Of a DNA stretch of 64,000 nucleotides, positions 2,613 through 35,039 are shown piece by piece. The translations under genes and the position numbers were made by a program. Position 1 is the first letter of the stretch; every line of letters begins with the position of its first letter. The notes beneath the pieces were generated by a model. That model worked only from the letters and a program-made list of their open reading frames with translations, made no database searches and had not been told where the DNA came from. The DNA is taken from NCBI RefSeq assembly GCF_002117005.1, contig NZ_CP021023.1:1178001-1242000 (forward strand). Direction: 5' to 3'. The DNA is from Sedimentisphaera salicampi. Its GTDB lineage: Bacteria; Planctomycetota; Phycisphaerae; Sedimentisphaerales; Sedimentisphaeraceae.

Positions 2613-5600
2613 ATGCCGCAATTGTTTTGGCATAAAAACTTAGAATTCTTCTTTGATTTCGGGAATCTGCCCAGGCATTCCTTTGGCGTATTGGGGCTGT
2701 CTTTCGAAAGAGATGCTCTATTGGTTTTTGCCGTTGCGGCGGTTATGCTTATTGCCGGGTTTCTGGCTGCCCTTTTTTTCTTTAGGCTGAAGAAAAACAA
2801 CGAACACCATACATATTCAGAAGCCGTGAAAAAGGGCGATAATATTTTTATTCTTTGGCGTCCAGTCCGCAATAACCTTGGGATAATAGAAGATTTCGAA
2901 ATTTCAGAGCTCAACAATTTTACCAGCAAGCTTTTGGCCGGCAAAGAGAATGCCCCCCAGATTGCTCTAAGAGAGCACAACGAGCTGCGTGAATTGATTT
3001 TTGAAAGTTTAGTGGAGACAGTTGAAAACAAACGTGAATTCAAGAGCTCTTACAGACTTGAAAATTTGAATAAATTCCTGAGCCTCTGCACCTTCAGAAC
3101 GCAGGAGGGCAATGCTGTGAGCATCGGTTCAGACCAGACCGAAGCGTTTAACGCAAAACGGGAAAAGCTGAAAGACGTAAAGCAGATTGAGTTTATATGC
3201 CAGCTCTCTCAGATGCTTGCCGCTGCAGGCACAGAAAACTACCGAGATGTTATCAGCGAGGTGCTCAGAAAGGTAACTGAATACGCCGGCTTCGAGAGAG
3301 GAATGCTTTTCCTCTTGGATAAATCCGGAGAGAGCTTCAGCGCCGAATACCAGTGGGCAGTACCAAAGGGGGAAGTTGAGCTTGATGATTTCAGGAACGT
3401 GCCGACAGAAAGCATCCCGATGTTTGCGGAGGTTTTGAAGGAAAAGGGCTCTATATTCATACGTTCACTGGATGATATTTCCGAAGAATCAGTAGGCGAG
3501 AGAACTTTCCTCAAGAAAAAGCTCGCTGAATCATCGTTGTTTACAGGCGTCTTCGAAAACAAAGAACTCGCCGGCTTTATTACTCTGGACAGTATAAACT
3601 ACCCGCCCCAGTTCAATGAAAATCTGCTTCGCGTTCTCAGGGTTACCGGCGAGGTGCTTAACAACACAGTAAAACGAATCAGCGCCACTTTCAGGCAGTT
3701 CTCTGAGGAAAACCGCTTTAAGAAGCTCTTCCAGAATATGCCCTCGGGCTTCGCCCTATACCGGGCAGAATACAATGATGGAGAATTTGAAGACTTTTAC
3801 CTTACCGAATCCAACCAGCAGTTTGACAACTTGTGCAGCAGGGCTGTTTACAAAGACAGCAGGATTGGACTTCTCTGCCCCGAAGAACGGGACTGGCTTG
3901 ATAATTACAGAAAAGCTGCGGAAGAAGGCTCAAAGATATTTTTTGAGGCATTTTCCGAAACCTCAAACAGATATTTTGAGATAATAGCCGCAAGCCCAGA
4001 AGAGGGCTTCCTTGCAACGATTGTATCGGACAGGACTGAAAAGATACGTTCTAAAAATGAGCTTGAAACGAGAATAGAATTCGAGGAATCCCTCTCCGAT
4101 TCGCTTGAAAATATCGCAAAGCTCAACAACGACAACATCGAATATATGCTCAAGGATCTCTTCCGATCGTTATGCTCCTATTCCGGAGCAGACCGCTGCA
4201 TACTTGAATACAGAAACACCGGCGAGCTCTTCTCAGACCTGTACAGCTATGAACACGTGCACAATCAGCTTACTCTCAGCTCGACAAACTTCGTGGAAAT
4301 GCCGGAAAGCCTTACCGCCAAGTTTGAAGATAACATTATCAATCTGCAGAATGCCTCTCTAAACAATCAGGAACGAGAATACCTGAGCAAATTCTGCGAG
4401 ACAAATACTGAAAACTCATTATGTTTCCGCAGCCTTATAGGCTCGAGCCTCTGCACGATAGTTCTTTCCAAAAATGACAGCTCGCTTTGGGGAGAAAACT
4501 GCGAGAGGATGATGAAGATATGTTCCGAGCCTCTCGTAAATGCATTGGTGAGGATTTATGCTGAAGACAGCATCAAGCAAAATGAAGAATTTTTCCGTGA
4601 GATCTTTGAGCAGGCCCCTGCGGGAATCTTAATGCTGAATTATGACAGGGAAATCCTTTCTGCAAACAGAAACTGCCTGTCGATTCTGGAAATCGAGAGC
4701 GAAGAAGAAATCAAGGGCACTTTTTTTGAAAAGTATATCACCATTCCCGAGGGCAAGCTGGAGGATATAAGAAACCATAAAGAAACCGAATTCCTCACGA
4801 AAATACAACCCGAAGAGGAAGATGCTGATGAATCAGAAGAACTCGTAAAAACTCTCAAGATAAGGGTTACTCCGCAAAAAAATGCCTCAGAAAGTGTTTT
4901 AAAACGGGCATATATCGTTATAATAGATGACATAACGGAATCTATTAAGGATCGGGAAAGGATTGAGCAGGCTAATATCGAATTGCGTCAGTCAAATGAA
5001 GATCTGAAGCAGTTTGCGTATGTAACCTCGCACGACCTTCAGGAGCCTGTGAGAACGATCACCTGCTACCTCGACCTGTTAGACTCCGAACTGGAAGAGA
5101 AAAACGTAAACGGTGAAGCGAAAGAATACTTGAAATACGCAAGAAACGGCAGCCTCAAGATTTACAGCGTGATAAATGATCTCTTGCAGTTTTCAAAGGC
5201 CGGCTTCAAAGAACTCAAGCTTGAGCAGGCTGATTTGGGCGAGCTTGCTGAAGAGGCAGCAGGAGACCTTAAGGGTCTTATCGATGAAACCGAAGCAGAA
5301 ATCAGCATTGGCGAACTGCCAACATTGAGATGCGACAAAGTGCAGATATACAGGGTGTTTATGAACCTGATAAGCAATGCTGTGCGGTTTAACAAAAAGG
5401 GCGAGAAGCCGAAGGTGGAAATTTATGCCGAATGTATTGATGGAATATGGCGGATTTGCGTTAAGGATAACGGCATAGGCATAGAGGAAAGTATGCGTAA
5501 AGAGATCTTTACTATTTTCAAAAGACTGCACGAGAAACCCGACGCCCGCGGAACGGGTGTGGGGCTGGCTATCTGCAAAAAAATAATTGAAAGACATCAG

Positions 5601-29467: not shown

Positions 29468-29481
29468 CCCCTTTCTCTTTT

Positions 29482-30869
<1,388 letters not shown>

Positions 30870-30870
<1 letters not shown>

Positions 30871-31064
30871 TATTTCCCTCGCTTTTGGAGTTCATATCCG
30901 AAATATTCGAGAAGGTCTTCAGCGTTCTTTAGAGATATGCAGGGCTGTTCTGAATGGTAAACCTTCCAGAGTATCTGTTCCGATATTCCGCTTTCCTTCC
31001 AGATCGCATATCGGGTTTTCTCTGATTTCAAAAGCTCTTTTCTGATTGTTTTGTAAATATCCAT
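30870..31064 (-). CDS. Small helix-turn-helix regulator of the element
   Basis: 64 residues from the ATG at 31064 (an earlier in-frame ATG at 31103 would add 13). The sequence TRYAIWKESGISEQILWKVY reads as an XRE-like helix-turn-helix, followed by SLKNAEDLLEYFGYEL, the third and fourth helices of that fold. It overlaps the integrase start by one base, so it probably controls or is co-expressed with the integrase. Cro/CI-like role is inferred. Confidence 0.75.
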
Positions 31065-31458
31065 AATCACAGTGTACTCTCTTTCAATAAAGTATTCAAG
31101 CATTATTTCAAAAATTTATCTTTCCCGAATAACCCGCAGGCCTCCGCCGTTAAACAATGCACCGGCTTTTATTATTATAGATTATTTTTATCCTTTGAAA
31201 TTTTTCTGCGCAAAAATATGTTTTCCTTCTGTTTTCCTCCTCTTTTGGCTTATCTCTAAGCGTATATTGATTGAGAGGGTGGCTAATACTTAGAATACTG
31301 TTATATACAACAGAGCCCCCAACTTTCAAAAAATCCGTTTTAGAAGCTCTCAGGGGCATAACCTCTGTTGTCCAAAGTTTACAGCGCTGCCTGATTCCGG
31401 CATAACCTCTGTTGTCCGTAACAGAGGGGCTCTGTTGTCAACAACACCTGCAACTAAA
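31065..31458. other. Intergenic region of the element with iteron-like repeats
   Basis: About 390 bases between the HTH and winged-helix genes, A/T-rich in its first half (31080-31260) and carrying the CTCTGTTGTC repeat cluster in its second half. No credible ORF. It is the best place in the element for a replication origin or control region. Confidence 0.5.
31307..31440. repeat. Iteron-like repeat cluster (CTCTGTTGT)
   Basis: CATAACCTCTGTTGTCC occurs at 31357-31373 and 31401-31417 (44 bases apart). CTCTGTTGTC recurs at 31430-31439, and its reverse complement ACAACAGAG at 31307-31315. AACAGAG/CTCTGTT at 31420-31436 forms a perfect seven-base-pair hairpin. The cluster lies at the 3' end of the winged-helix gene. 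Confidence 0.65.
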
Positions 31459-31911
31459 TCAAATTTTGCAGTTTCGGCCAAACTTATTGCCCTTTTTGAA
31501 ACCGTGGGGCTGCTTCGGGGGAGGCTTCGCCGGCTCGAATTCACTTGTTCCATACTTCCGCCAACGCTCTGAAATCCAAAAGCTATTACAATTGCCTTCA
31601 AGTCCTCCACCCCTCTCGATGTTTATAAATCCAAGCTCTTCGAGATGGTCAATTGCATTTTTGAATCTTCGCTCGCCGTATCCGAATTTTTCCTTCGCCT
31701 TTTTGTACGGAAACACTATCTGCCCGTTGTTTGCGATACTCCACTGCACGTGTTTGCCATTTGAGTTTCTGTTCTTTACCATTCGGCGGCTTGCGTATAG
31801 CTCCATTAAAACAACGTGAGCTGTCGCCGTCTTAATATCCCTGAAGGCCTTGCTTGAAATAAGGCCTGCTGGAAGTACAATGTTTAGCTTTTTAGTCTTG
31901 CTCTTGCACAT
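31459..31911 (-). CDS. Winged-helix protein, possible replication initiator of the element
   Basis: 150 residues. The middle part (FPYKKAKEKFGYGERRFKNA followed by IDHLEELGFINIERGGG) has the helix-turn-helix-wing layout of phage and plasmid replication initiators and replisome organisers. The C-terminal 40 residues are rich in Pro, Lys and Gly and look flexible. It ends 19 bases from an iteron-like cluster, which supports a Rep-like role; a transcriptional regulator is the alternative. It overlaps the upstream Cys-rich gene by 20 bases and is the last gene of a four-gene overlapping operon. Confidence 0.7.
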   Translation of the reverse strand: MCKSKTKKLNIVLPAGLISSKAFRDIKTATAHVVLMELYASRRMVKNRNSNGKHVQWSIANNGQIVFPYKKAKEKFGYGERRFKNAIDHLEELGFINIERGGGLEGNCNSFWISERWRKYGTSEFEPAKPPPKQPHGFKKGNKFGRNCKI

Positions 31912-32140
31912 TTCCGCTCAAGTCCTCCTCTGGAGAGTTTTGGCGTTCTCTAAGGGCTTCGGCGGCAGGGCTCAAGGGGTACAGGGGGCAGCTGGTATTT
32001 TCGCATTTGCGAGCCTCTGAGGCCTTCCAGCCGAAGCAATGAATGCAATGGCATTTTATAGCCTGCTTTGCCGAAAGTTTTCCCGCAATCGCTCTCTCAT
32101 ACATTTTGCGATATCGTTTGGGAATATCTTCAGTTTTCAT
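31892..32140 (-). CDS. Small Cys-rich zinc-finger-like protein
   Basis: 82 residues. A cluster of two Cys pairs with His, CHCIHCFGW followed by CENTSCPLYPLSP, is a typical small phage/element protein motif (Cys-x2-Cys, later Cys-x4-5-Cys-Pro-Leu). It probably binds zinc and nucleic acid. Its start overlaps the stop of the next upstream gene by four bases (ATGA). Confidence 0.7.
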   Translation of the reverse strand: MKTEDIPKRYRKMYERAIAGKLSAKQAIKCHCIHCFGWKASEARKCENTSCPLYPLSPAAEALRERQNSPEEDLSGNVQEQD

Positions 32141-32328
32141 TTCTTACACCTCAAAATAAAAGCTTCAAGGTCTTTAATGTCGAAGCGAACGGCTCGCCGC
32201 AATTTCACTTGTGGAAGCTGGCCTGATTTTTTCAGGCTTGCGATTGTCCTCGGGGAAACCGAAAGGAATCCAGCAGCCTCTTTAACAGTGAGCAGCCTGC
32301 GGCTTTGAGCTTTTTCTTTAGCTTGCAT
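32137..32328 (-). CDS. Excisionase/AlpA-like HTH protein 1
   Basis: 63 residues. LLTVKEAAGFLSVSPRTIAS, then LKKSGQLPQVKLRRAVRFD and IKDLEAF, is a MerR-type winged helix of the excisionase (Xis/AlpA) family. A role in excision or element gene control is inferred. It overlaps both neighbours, so it belongs to one operon with them. Confidence 0.82.
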   Translation of the reverse strand: MQAKEKAQSRRLLTVKEAAGFLSVSPRTIASLKKSGQLPQVKLRRAVRFDIKDLEAFILRCKK

Positions 32329-32660: not shown

Positions 32661-33839
32661 TCAATCAGAGGGGTACATATTGAAATCAGGCTCTTTCTTT
32701 TGCTCTTCGTAAATCCCAAGTATCTCTTCTCTGTTCTCAAGATTTTTTAGAGCTTCCTGCCCGCTGCCTGTGTGATTATTCACTTGCTCGGAGGGGGCAA
32801 CGCTGCCCGTATATTCTCCCCGCCCCTTCTGCCGTTCTTTGCAAATCTTCCCTTCTGCCAAGAATGTTTTATATGCCTTGCTTGAATAAACGGCTTTTCG
32901 CGCAGATTTAAAATCTCTATATCCAAGCTTAGGCTCGATATGCGCTGCTATTTCCTTAGGAATAACCGGCAATCCAGTTTCTTCAAAACGCTGTATTACA
33001 AATTTCCTGATTGCCTTCTCGGCTTCCTTTTTAGCAGGGTTCTTTTTCTCTCGCTCCGGCTTGCCGGCCTGCTGTTCCTGAGAGAGTTTGCCGGCCTGCT
33101 CAATAGCTTCGTAAATATCCGTCCAAGAGTATTCGCTTAGCTCTTCCCCGTGAAATTCTTTCCGCAGAAAACGGCGGATATTTGAGAGCTGCCCGCTCCC
33201 AACAACAGAGATGATCGTGTTCTTTTGTTCAGGCGTGAGAGGCTCTCTCGGTGATATGTGGATATTTAGTTTCCTGCCTCCGGATAAAGCGCTCTCAAGG
33301 GGCTCGAAGCCGTTCTCTGTCAAACGGTCGAAATCCTTCTTTTTGATAATATAAATATAGGTCAAATCCTCGTTTGCTTGAGCAGCAAGCGGATATACAG
33401 GGGATATGTAAACGGGTTCTCGTATTGCTTGAAAGAGCGGAAAGCTTTCTAAAGATTCGATGGTATCTGCTAAGTCGCAAATCCTTGCAAATAAGGGCGG
33501 AGATGGAAATCTTGCTTCTTTTATCTCGCTTGCAATTTTCTGAGCTTGAATAAAACTACACCTCGATTTTACAGGTATGCCTTCGCCGGTACGGAAAAAA
33601 ACTCGCTCGGCAGCGGCTTTTGTAAATCTTATAAATTCAGGGCTCGGGGCTGAAGTTTCGTTTTCGATATTGTTAAAGAAGGCCTGCGGAGATGTCCATT
33701 CGTGAGCGTCTGCAAAGTCTAAATATAAGGCTTCAAGCTCCGCTCTAAGCTCTTCGATTTCGCCGGAAGTATCTACCTCGCATAGATGTTTTAAGAGATT
33801 CCATAAGCCTGCCAACTGTTTATAAATTGCGTCCTGCAT
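32661..33839 (-). CDS. Element protein of unknown function (392 residues)
   Basis: The longest gene of the element after the integrase. Helical N-terminus (about 1-60) rich in Glu and Leu; a middle part with DLTYIYIIKKKDFDRLTENG; a Lys/Glu-rich linker (KPEREKKNPAKKEAEKAIRK near 270) and a basic segment GYRDFKSARKAVYSSKAYK near 320 that could bind DNA. I recognise no primase, helicase or nuclease motif. Stand-alone gene with 148 bases before the next operon. Confidence 0.6.
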   Translation of the reverse strand: MQDAIYKQLAGLWNLLKHLCEVDTSGEIEELRAELEALYLDFADAHEWTSPQAFFNNIENETSAPSPEFIRFTKAAAERVFFRTGEGIPVKSRCSFIQAQKIASEIKEARFPSPPLFARICDLADTIESLESFPLFQAIREPVYISPVYPLAAQANEDLTYIYIIKKKDFDRLTENGFEPLESALSGGRKLNIHISPREPLTPEQKNTIISVVGSGQLSNIRRFLRKEFHGEELSEYSWTDIYEAIEQAGKLSQEQQAGKPEREKKNPAKKEAEKAIRKFVIQRFEETGLPVIPKEIAAHIEPKLGYRDFKSARKAVYSSKAYKTFLAEGKICKERQKGRGEYTGSVAPSEQVNNHTGSGQEALKNLENREEILGIYEEQKKEPDFNMYPSD

Positions 33840-34313: not shown

Positions 34314-34661
34314 TCACCACCGAATAAGACAGCTCTGCTCTACCTTGAAACAATATCCGCTGCCCGGATTCTCTCGGCGGTATCGTTTCCATAAATGCTG
34401 GAGATGTTCGTTCGAAATTCCTTTAGCTTGAAAGCTTCGAACCACATCGCCTCTGCTCGCTCTCTCGTAGTCTCTGCGAAGCTTGTGGCTCTCTATAACC
34501 TGCTCAAAGCGTTCATAAACCGAATCATCTTCAGCAGCTCGTTTCAAATCTTCGCTAAGCTCTTCCGCTGAAATAAAGCTCTTCGATAATTCTTCCGCTG
34601 AAATAAAGCTCTTCGAAAGCTCTTCCTCTGTGGGCGAGTTCATAAAAATATCATCCATCAT
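34314..34661 (-). CDS. Small element protein with EELSKSFISA repeats
   Basis: 115 residues. Two exact copies of EELSKSFISA (30-base DNA repeats at 34557-34586 and 34587-34616, with a third partial copy) near the N-terminus, followed by a charged helical region (VYERFEQVIESHKLRRDYER) and a C-terminus with FQAKGISNEHLQHLWKRYRR. Clear GAGG ribosome-binding site. Function unknown. Confidence 0.6.
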   Translation of the reverse strand: MMDDIFMNSPTEEELSKSFISAEELSKSFISAEELSEDLKRAAEDDSVYERFEQVIESHKLRRDYERASRGDVVRSFQAKGISNEHLQHLWKRYRRENPGSGYCFKVEQSCLIRW

Positions 34662-34812: not shown

Positions 34813-35037
34813 TTATCCTTTATCCTGAGCGGTGCTGCTCAAGCTTCCGATTATCAAATCGAAAATCTGCTGTTTGATACCTTCCGGAACGGCAGGCCAT
34901 AGCTTCACAATCTGCTGCAAATCTTTTGAAAGTTCGGAAAAGTGCACCGGATTATGCACCGCCTCAAAATCGCTGATTTCATAAATGCTTTTATTCTGGT
35001 GGGTTAAAGAAACCGGTTCGACTCCAGTCCTGGGCAT
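34813..35037 (-). pseudogene. Stranded 3' end of the integrase gene (C-terminal tail)
   Basis: 74-codon frame whose first eight codons (MPRTGVEP) are the att core and whose last 66 are the tail the integrase would have in the circular element (KDLQQIVKLWPAVPEGIKQQ near its end, LSSTAQDKG at the end). The frame is the same as that of the integrase through the core. No ribosome-binding site precedes the ATG in the chromosome. It is therefore a displaced gene end, not a separate gene. Confidence 0.75.
34943..34961. promoter_or_regulatory. Two TGCACCG repeats, 12-bp period (candidate arm sites, right)
   Basis: TGCACCG at 34943 and 34955, 54 bases inside attR, with the same 12-base spacing and the same orientation as the three copies near attL. 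Eighteen bases (GCACCGGATTATGCACCG) are identical between the two sides. Confidence 0.5.
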
Positions 35038-35039
35038 TT
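35015..35039. repeat. attR core (copy of tRNA-Leu 3' end)
   Basis: Exact 25-base match to 29546-29570. The sequence to its left differs from the tRNA (AACC in place of GCT), which marks the right end of the element. Confidence 0.92.

Follow-up and report, generated by a model that had tools for sequence, protein, structure and literature searches.

A repeat cluster beside a winged-helix gene as the probable replication origin of a small integrative element in Sedimentisphaera salicampi

Between a winged-helix gene and a small HTH gene in the genome of Sedimentisphaera salicampi lies a cluster of short direct and inverted repeats, and the question arises whether these are the iterons of a replication origin or whether they serve gene regulation or site-specific recombination instead. 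The 64,000 nucleotides analysed as a whole, hereafter the window, are contained in a 3.19-Mb single-contig genome. The preliminary description of the locus had taken the cluster for a plasmid-type origin from which the surrounding element replicates after excision, and the results presented below make it probable that an integrative element of 5.47 kb has these repeats as the iterons of its replication origin and a 150-aa winged-helix protein as its initiator.

The mobile element is inserted in a tRNA-Leu gene and bounded by exact 25-bp att repeats (25/25). The features of the locus are, by position:

29481-29568: tRNA-Leu (gag) gene, after which the element starts
29546-29570: att site at the 3' end of the tRNA-Leu (gag) gene and within the integrase ORF, exact 25-bp repeat GGTTCGACTCCAGTCCTGGGCATTT
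29509-30870, minus strand: tyrosine integrase (PF13102, PF00589; phrog_1, 9e-41)
30870-31103, minus strand: small HTH regulator (phrog_9425 repressor, 3e-4)
31071-31099, minus strand: possible promoter of the HTH and integrase genes, TTGAAT-17-TACACT (8/12 consensus bases, read from the sequence)
31277-31297, minus strand: conserved box TATTCTAAGTATTAGCCACCC adjoining the last repeat, putative opening or start site
31298-31315, minus strand: iteron 4, in the opposite orientation (CTGTTATATACAACAGAG on the plus strand)
31355-31386, plus strand: iteron 3, including the 19-bp direct repeat at 31355-31373
31399-31427, plus strand: iteron 2, including the 19-bp direct repeat at 31399-31417 and a perfect 8-bp hairpin at 31406-31427
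31430-31446, plus strand: iteron 1, CTCTGTTGTCAACAACA
31459-31911, minus strand: 150-aa winged-helix protein, predicted replication initiator and putative iteron binder (profiles, structure model, fold searches)
31892-32140, minus strand: 82-aa Cys-rich protein, often beside the initiator (in 4/7 relatives compared)
32137-32328, minus strand: excisionase-like HTH_17 protein (PF12728, 2e-11; phrog_66, 4e-11)
32661-33839, minus strand: 392-aa element-specific cargo protein (best Pfam E 0.05)
34813-35037, minus strand: detached C-terminal tail of the integrase, back in frame in the circular form (junction reading, tail profile)
35015-35039: second att copy GGTTCGACTCCAGTCCTGGGCATTT, marking the other boundary of the element

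On the minus strand, the gene order runs from small ORFs to the 392-aa ORF, two small HTH/excisionase-like genes, the Cys-rich 82-aa ORF and the winged-helix gene (31911-31459), followed by a 355-bp gap holding the repeats, the small HTH gene and finally the integrase gene, which as the last minus-strand gene of the element terminates inside the tRNA. The element is organised like a tRNA-integrated genomic island, with a tRNA gene and its displaced 3' fragment around an integrase. The congeneric genome G001 has an unoccupied tRNA-Leu gene, and the 9 bases 3' of it correspond to the sequence beyond the far end of the element. An empty site over long flanks was rejected for G001, as the genes flanking the element are about 190 kb apart there, so that only these 9 bases past att back the empty site. 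Elsewhere in the same genome as the window there is a degenerate relic of a sister element (L111, G000:C1:2856000-2866000, at about 4997-5296), consisting of a C-terminal integrase fragment with stops immediately after a tRNA-Glu(ctc) gene.

The C-terminus of the integrated integrase is encoded by the antisense strand of the tRNA, and the joined reading frame of the circular form is open. In a comparison of 26 loci, in which an att pair had to be at least 20 bp long and to start at the tRNA 3' end, six had a qualifying pair, and in all six elements (6/6; the window, G008 with L096 plus L009, L010, L013, L015 and L041) the att site lies within the integrase ORF. In the integrated form the last few residues of the protein stem from the antisense strand of the tRNA or tmRNA gene, and in the circle the protein has a conserved tail (..DLQQVIEAWPNLPEHIKAAIKALI..) there; integration thus swaps the C-terminus and excision restores the tail. 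Counting L094, where a 20-bp repeat lies 12 bases off the tRNA end and the joined reading yields no tail, the ratio becomes 6/7; the repeats in L083, L089 and L099 are 13-14 bp long, and 16 loci have no att candidate. A profile of the tail matches 16 of 39 loci, ten of them outside the six from which it was built.

With respect to the remaining gene content, the 82-aa protein displays the cysteine pattern C-x-C-x2-C ... C-x4-CPLY, and a 115-aa ORF contains a short in-frame duplication at 34560-34625 in which EELSKSFISA is repeated. Relatives of the small HTH regulator align from about residue 16, and the protein probably starts at 31064 (M14). The 392-aa protein has no match in PHROGs or PADLOC, and its sole match among the 159 genomes of the order that were searched is its own genome; having no relative in the 158 others, it was rejected as a candidate for the initiator of the family. 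Other elements carry restriction-modification cargo, namely a type IIG system in L010 (L010:10566-13499) and a DNA methylase in L015 (L015:12003-12854), and the 27-kb element of G008 contains type I restriction-like genes as judged by eye alone. The excisionase-like protein also matches a terminase small subunit weakly (1e-4), far behind its excisionase match; apart from this weak match no phage structural proteins were recognised among the element proteins scanned, and the ten proteins of the element that were scanned, two of these in PADLOC, gave no clear match to helper-phage packaging or interference genes. Neither a free circular form nor a plasmid or phage relative was found in the plasmids, phages or viral contigs searched, the first two by tblastn with three proteins in all, and the viral contigs with single proteins, two repeat/box strings and the close alignment A3. 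A single-protein scan of genome contigs found nothing, and comparison of alignment A3 with these contigs yielded four records, which are MAGs of Phycisphaerales, Sedimentisphaerales or Phycisphaerae and correspond by identity (100% in one case) to the four members of the alignment itself.

The repeat cluster is built around CTCTGTTGT, which occurs five times in the 64 kb as compared to 0.29 copies expected, a number reached in none of 100 shuffles, and all five copies fall within the 5.47-kb element (31363, 31407 and 31430 on the plus strand, 31307 and 33202 on the minus strand). The existence of the cluster is therefore borne out, as are the third direct copy (31430) and the inverted one (31307) described earlier. 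The two long direct repeats GGCATAACCTCTGTTGTCC at 31355-31373 and 31399-31417 are indeed 44 bp apart; the length of 17 bases originally given for them has to be corrected to 19 bp, over which they are exact. The perfect 8-bp hairpin CCTCTGTT-N6-AACAGAGG at 31406-31427 was likewise found as described, and the idea of a transcription terminator at this hairpin was dropped after a terminator scan returned none. By contrast, the description of the cluster as A/T-rich did not hold, its GC content being 48.5% as against 47.5% in the window; it is the neighbouring stretch between the cluster and the HTH gene (31104-31290) that is low in GC (35.3%). Every copy in the cluster belongs to an imperfect dyad as one of its halves (CTGTTACG-GACAACAGAG, CTGTAAACTTTG-GACAACAGAG, CTGTTATA-TACAACAGAG and TGTTGTT-GACAACAGAG), so that on the gene strand the repeats appear as semi-palindromes in which ACAACAGAG is the strong half and its counterpart (CTGT or TGTTG) is looser. 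For the 300 bp preceding the box, the repeat score is above that of 100/100 dinucleotide shuffles and is equalled in 4/148 other 300-bp windows of the locus, and an 8-mer version of the score is matched by 0/200 shuffles and 6/219 other windows. The fifth exact copy of CTCTGTTGT (33202-33210, minus strand) sits in the 392-aa ORF and is possibly a distant binding site or a chance occurrence.

The gene next to the cluster had been called Rep-like, and both the profiles and the folds of its 150-aa product point to replication initiators as well. In PHROGs the window protein matches phrog_186 (5e-8) and phrog_270 (2e-5); phrog_186, a DnaD-like helicase loader, is matched by 16 of 21 members of the family, replication-initiation families by some and a transcription regulator family by two of the 21. 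In Pfam no family was found below E 0.08 for the window protein, and among the 21 members HTH_36 is matched by four and MarR or GntR models by up to three. The RepA_N family (PF06970) was absent for the window protein at E values up to 1 and for the 21 members at 0.01, and a PDB sequence search gave weak matches alone, mostly to regulators (best E 0.013). The structure model has a pLDDT of 78.5, with nothing helical or stranded predicted past residue 119 and a pLDDT of 50-55 from residue 131; as judged from this model, the C-terminal domain of the RepA_N type is absent, and there appears to be no second domain to recruit a helicase. Since PF06970 is unmatched and this second domain is absent, the putative initiator is not classed as RepA_N. 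The best viral fold matches include replisome organizers, a DnaD-domain protein and an O-like protein. In the PDB fold search, the CodY DNA-binding domain comes first by E-value (9e-3) and 4pt7 ('Structure of initiator') second; by Z, 4pql, 4pt7 and 5kbj occupy ranks 1-3 (Z 8.8-8.1), followed by other chains at Z 7-8.1, among them those of general transcription factors (8.1) and the RepA of pPS10 (7.3), and by many RepE54 entries near 6.9. One report identifies 4PT7 and 4PTA as initiators of the plasmid RepA type (PMC7145576). The fold is nearest, if weakly, to plasmid RepA N-terminal domains, the matches being suggestive and not conclusive; winged helices are common, and the scores are borderline.

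The winged-helix protein or its alignment matches 6/59 genomes, 12/397 at the level of the class and 16/161 at that of the order, and with a stricter cut-off 2/392 genomes phylum-wide, the own genome being counted in each case. Reading 22 relatives together with the window gave a set of 23 members, mostly from Phycisphaerae. In all 22 relatives as well as in the window, the repeats lie in the final part of the winged-helix gene and/or just after it; the four clustered copies beside an initiator-like gene in the window thus have the same layout as in the 22 relatives. It had been suggested at the outset to look for relatives that possess the gene and lack the repeats, and there were none among the 22 read. 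Of the 21 members that were scored, 17, among them the window, have repeats that outscore all 100 shuffles, and the repeats are weaker but visible in L011, L039, L049 and L050, where 7, 4, 3 and 1 of 100 shuffles, respectively, score as high; several loci also hold other windows that are equally repetitive, e.g., 26/120 in L044. For L042 and L104 the repeats were read by eye, the score of L042 (5/100 shuffles as high) having been placed wrongly after the stop of the long ORF.

The sequence of the repeats varies among the elements. Besides CTCTGTTGT in the window, there are GCTATGTTAGC in L009 and L010, AACTTTAGAAACTAAAG-like repeats in L012-L015 and L045, AACTGTTG/AACAGTTA in L038, L039 and L046, with which L049 (AACAGCCGT) was grouped, CCGTGCGCAnnAATGCGCACGG-like repeats in L011, L040, L041, L047 and L048, to which L044 (CGTTTACAAACGCACGC) was added by eye, and TTACCGTACATGG-like repeats in L050, with which L051 (ATCATATATGATA) was grouped; L043, L042 and L104 each have other repeat sequences. 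When seven motif classes, assigned by eye, were placed on a tree of 21 proteins from which the columns of the repeat-containing C-terminal tail had been removed, six changes were needed, which is the minimum, in a test that is lenient because 6/18 inner branches are unresolved. The repeat sequence thus fits the protein tree in spite of its variation, and since the group of L012-L015 and L045 spans hosts of three families (f2, f4 and f7), the repeat type tracks the protein and not the host.

After the last repeat, the relatives share a box of approximately TTCTATAGATNNCCA, with variants that include TACGTA and CTTAAGAAT and in which CC is retained. The boxes of 21 members were chosen by eye. 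As a guard against bias from this choice and from that of the motif classes, every box was scored by a matrix built solely from the other motif classes, and two further members were kept out of the model altogether. With these matrices, the best match of the region was the box in 17/21, with p<0.05 in 11/21. The best match lay elsewhere in L038, L040, L046 and L049, the TACGTA boxes were missed as a group, and the box of the window is among the weaker ones (p=0.094). The strongest single result comes from L042 and L104 (L104 represents a different class of the phylum), because neither belonged to the training set and a rule learned on some members here predicted others. In L042, for which no box had been noticed by eye before the matrix scan, the best match of the locus is a box that lies within the long ORF and follows four GCGCACAnAAAAGTACGCG-like repeats, and in L104 it is a box 126 bp past the gene with AGTAACGT/ACGTTACT repeats before it.

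The box resembles a -10 element, and an HTH gene lies downstream of it in 14 of the 23 members. The repeats might therefore be operators of a winged-helix activator and the box the -10 of a promoter directed towards the HTH and integrase genes, in which case the system would control excision and not replication. The box often contains TATAGAT or TATAAT and sits close behind a repeat, MarR/GntR-type matches occur in a few members, the CodY domain comes first in the PDB, and the HTH gene of the window has no promoter match above chance: the candidate listed above is absent from the list of the scan, and as shuffles reach 9 of 12 in 74/100 cases for its 8/12, the HTH gene of the window cannot be credited with an established promoter. 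Against such an activator, in 9/23 members the box and the repeats are kept although no downstream HTH gene was found (over 2.5 kb in eight and 1.3 kb in L104), and 10 of the 14 members with HTH have a separate sigma-70-like match of 10-12 of 12 located 92-227 bp past the box. In a shuffle control on the best promoter matches of 12 of the 14, seven were equalled by at most 4/100 shuffles and three by 6-11/100, those of the window and L009 being at chance (74 and 78 of 100); a separate HTH promoter is thus well supported by sequence in some relatives alone, the window excluded. Moreover, the TACGTA variant and CTTAAGAAT with its retained CC would be odd for a -10, and the protein profiles indicate replication proteins, all of which makes control by an activator improbable. 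The simpler possibility that the HTH regulator itself uses the repeats as its operator, which is in keeping with their location between the winged-helix and HTH genes and with the repressor-like nature of the latter, had been put forward with the origin reading as a check on it. It is very improbable, as the repeats track the winged-helix gene, lie partly within its coding end and persist together with the box in the nine members just mentioned. The outcome of this check and of the search for relatives without repeats both favour an origin.

A replication origin might also be genuine by descent and the copy in the window a relic that has lost excision and replication, as the degenerate sister element at tRNA-Glu in the same genome and the weakness of the window box would suggest. 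Such decay is unlikely, if still the most credible of these alternatives, given that the att repeats are exact (25/25) and that both the core ORFs and the circular integrase frame are open. Finally, integrases of this type are able to recognise direct repeats in the vicinity of att, and the repeats could accordingly be arm-type integrase sites or some other recombination signal. Yet some 1.7 kb separate the cluster from the closer of the two att sites, and the location of the cluster follows the winged-helix gene and not att, which leaves this the least probable of the readings considered.

From the observed repeats with their dyads and kept position, the box, the fit of the repeat types, the att sites, the integrase, the excisionase-like gene and the profile and fold likeness, we infer for the preferred reading – a replication origin – binding, melting, recruitment of a host helicase and replication of a circle. 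The integrase and the excisionase would excise the element as a circle, and the winged-helix protein, whose gene immediately precedes the repeats with respect to transcription, would bind the semi-palindromic repeats through the strong half-site ACAACAGAG and help to open the adjacent box (31277-31297) and its A/T-rich flank, where the helicase and replisome of the host would be loaded so that the circle replicates. The initiator, repeats and box are kept while the large cargo gene was found in its own element alone. It is conceivable, at somewhat less than even confidence, that Phycisphaerae harbour minimal integrative replicons that form a family, in which a one-domain initiator and its iterons co-diversify into specificity groups and the tail of the integrase signals the state of the element, integrated or replicating as a free circle. 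If the origin reading is right, the replication module would comprise one 150-aa protein and about 180 bp, small enough to be tested in isolation, and the 23 pairs of protein and repeat would form a natural panel for studying joint changes of initiator and origin specificity; the module would also lend itself, as a candidate origin, to the construction of genetic tools for Planctomycetota, and the elements would make up a bacterial set whose integrases have their C-terminus rewritten on integration. No description of such elements in Planctomycetes was found in the open-licence literature searched.

Among known systems, phage replisome organizers, DnaD-like helicase loaders and lambda O-like proteins resemble the winged-helix part of the protein in profile and fold, and differ from it in having a recruiting C-terminal domain that is missing here. 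In lambda, the origin repeats are located in or beside the initiator gene, as are the repeats described here.

The integrase has counterparts in phage Mx8, which is a known bacterial precedent for an att site within the integrase gene (PMC6070905, PMC4383910), and in the archaeal 'suicidal' integrases of the SSV type, one review calling such integrases exclusively archaeal (PMC8371274). According to these papers, the att site lies within the integrase gene and integration alters the protein in both, as it does here (PMC6070905, PMC4383910, PMC8371274); unlike in either, the exchange in the present elements is limited to the region past the catalytic domain, and the tail is conserved among elements that target different tRNA or tmRNA genes.

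As regards replication, the RepA_N replicons (RepA of pSK41/pTZ2162) and the PLE of Vibrio cholerae share several features with the present element. The differences are that here PF06970 is not matched at the cut-offs used, the protein has 150 aa and essentially a single domain, the integrase is a tyrosine and not a serine integrase, a conserved box follows the repeats, and the hosts belong to Phycisphaerae and to a second class of the same phylum. Common to them are a winged-helix DNA-binding domain with DnaD-like resemblance, which in the present protein is a borderline one (PMC7145576, PMC8263062), semi-palindromic repeats, some of them around an A-tract (here clearest in L042), a DNA-binding domain and origin repeats that vary together, and an integrated element that is expected to replicate once excised. 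The PLE satellites are described as having a RepA_N initiator and semi-palindromic iterons, with the initiator domain and the origin covarying (PMC7145576, PMC8263062), and on that description they are the closest parallel for the mechanism proposed here.
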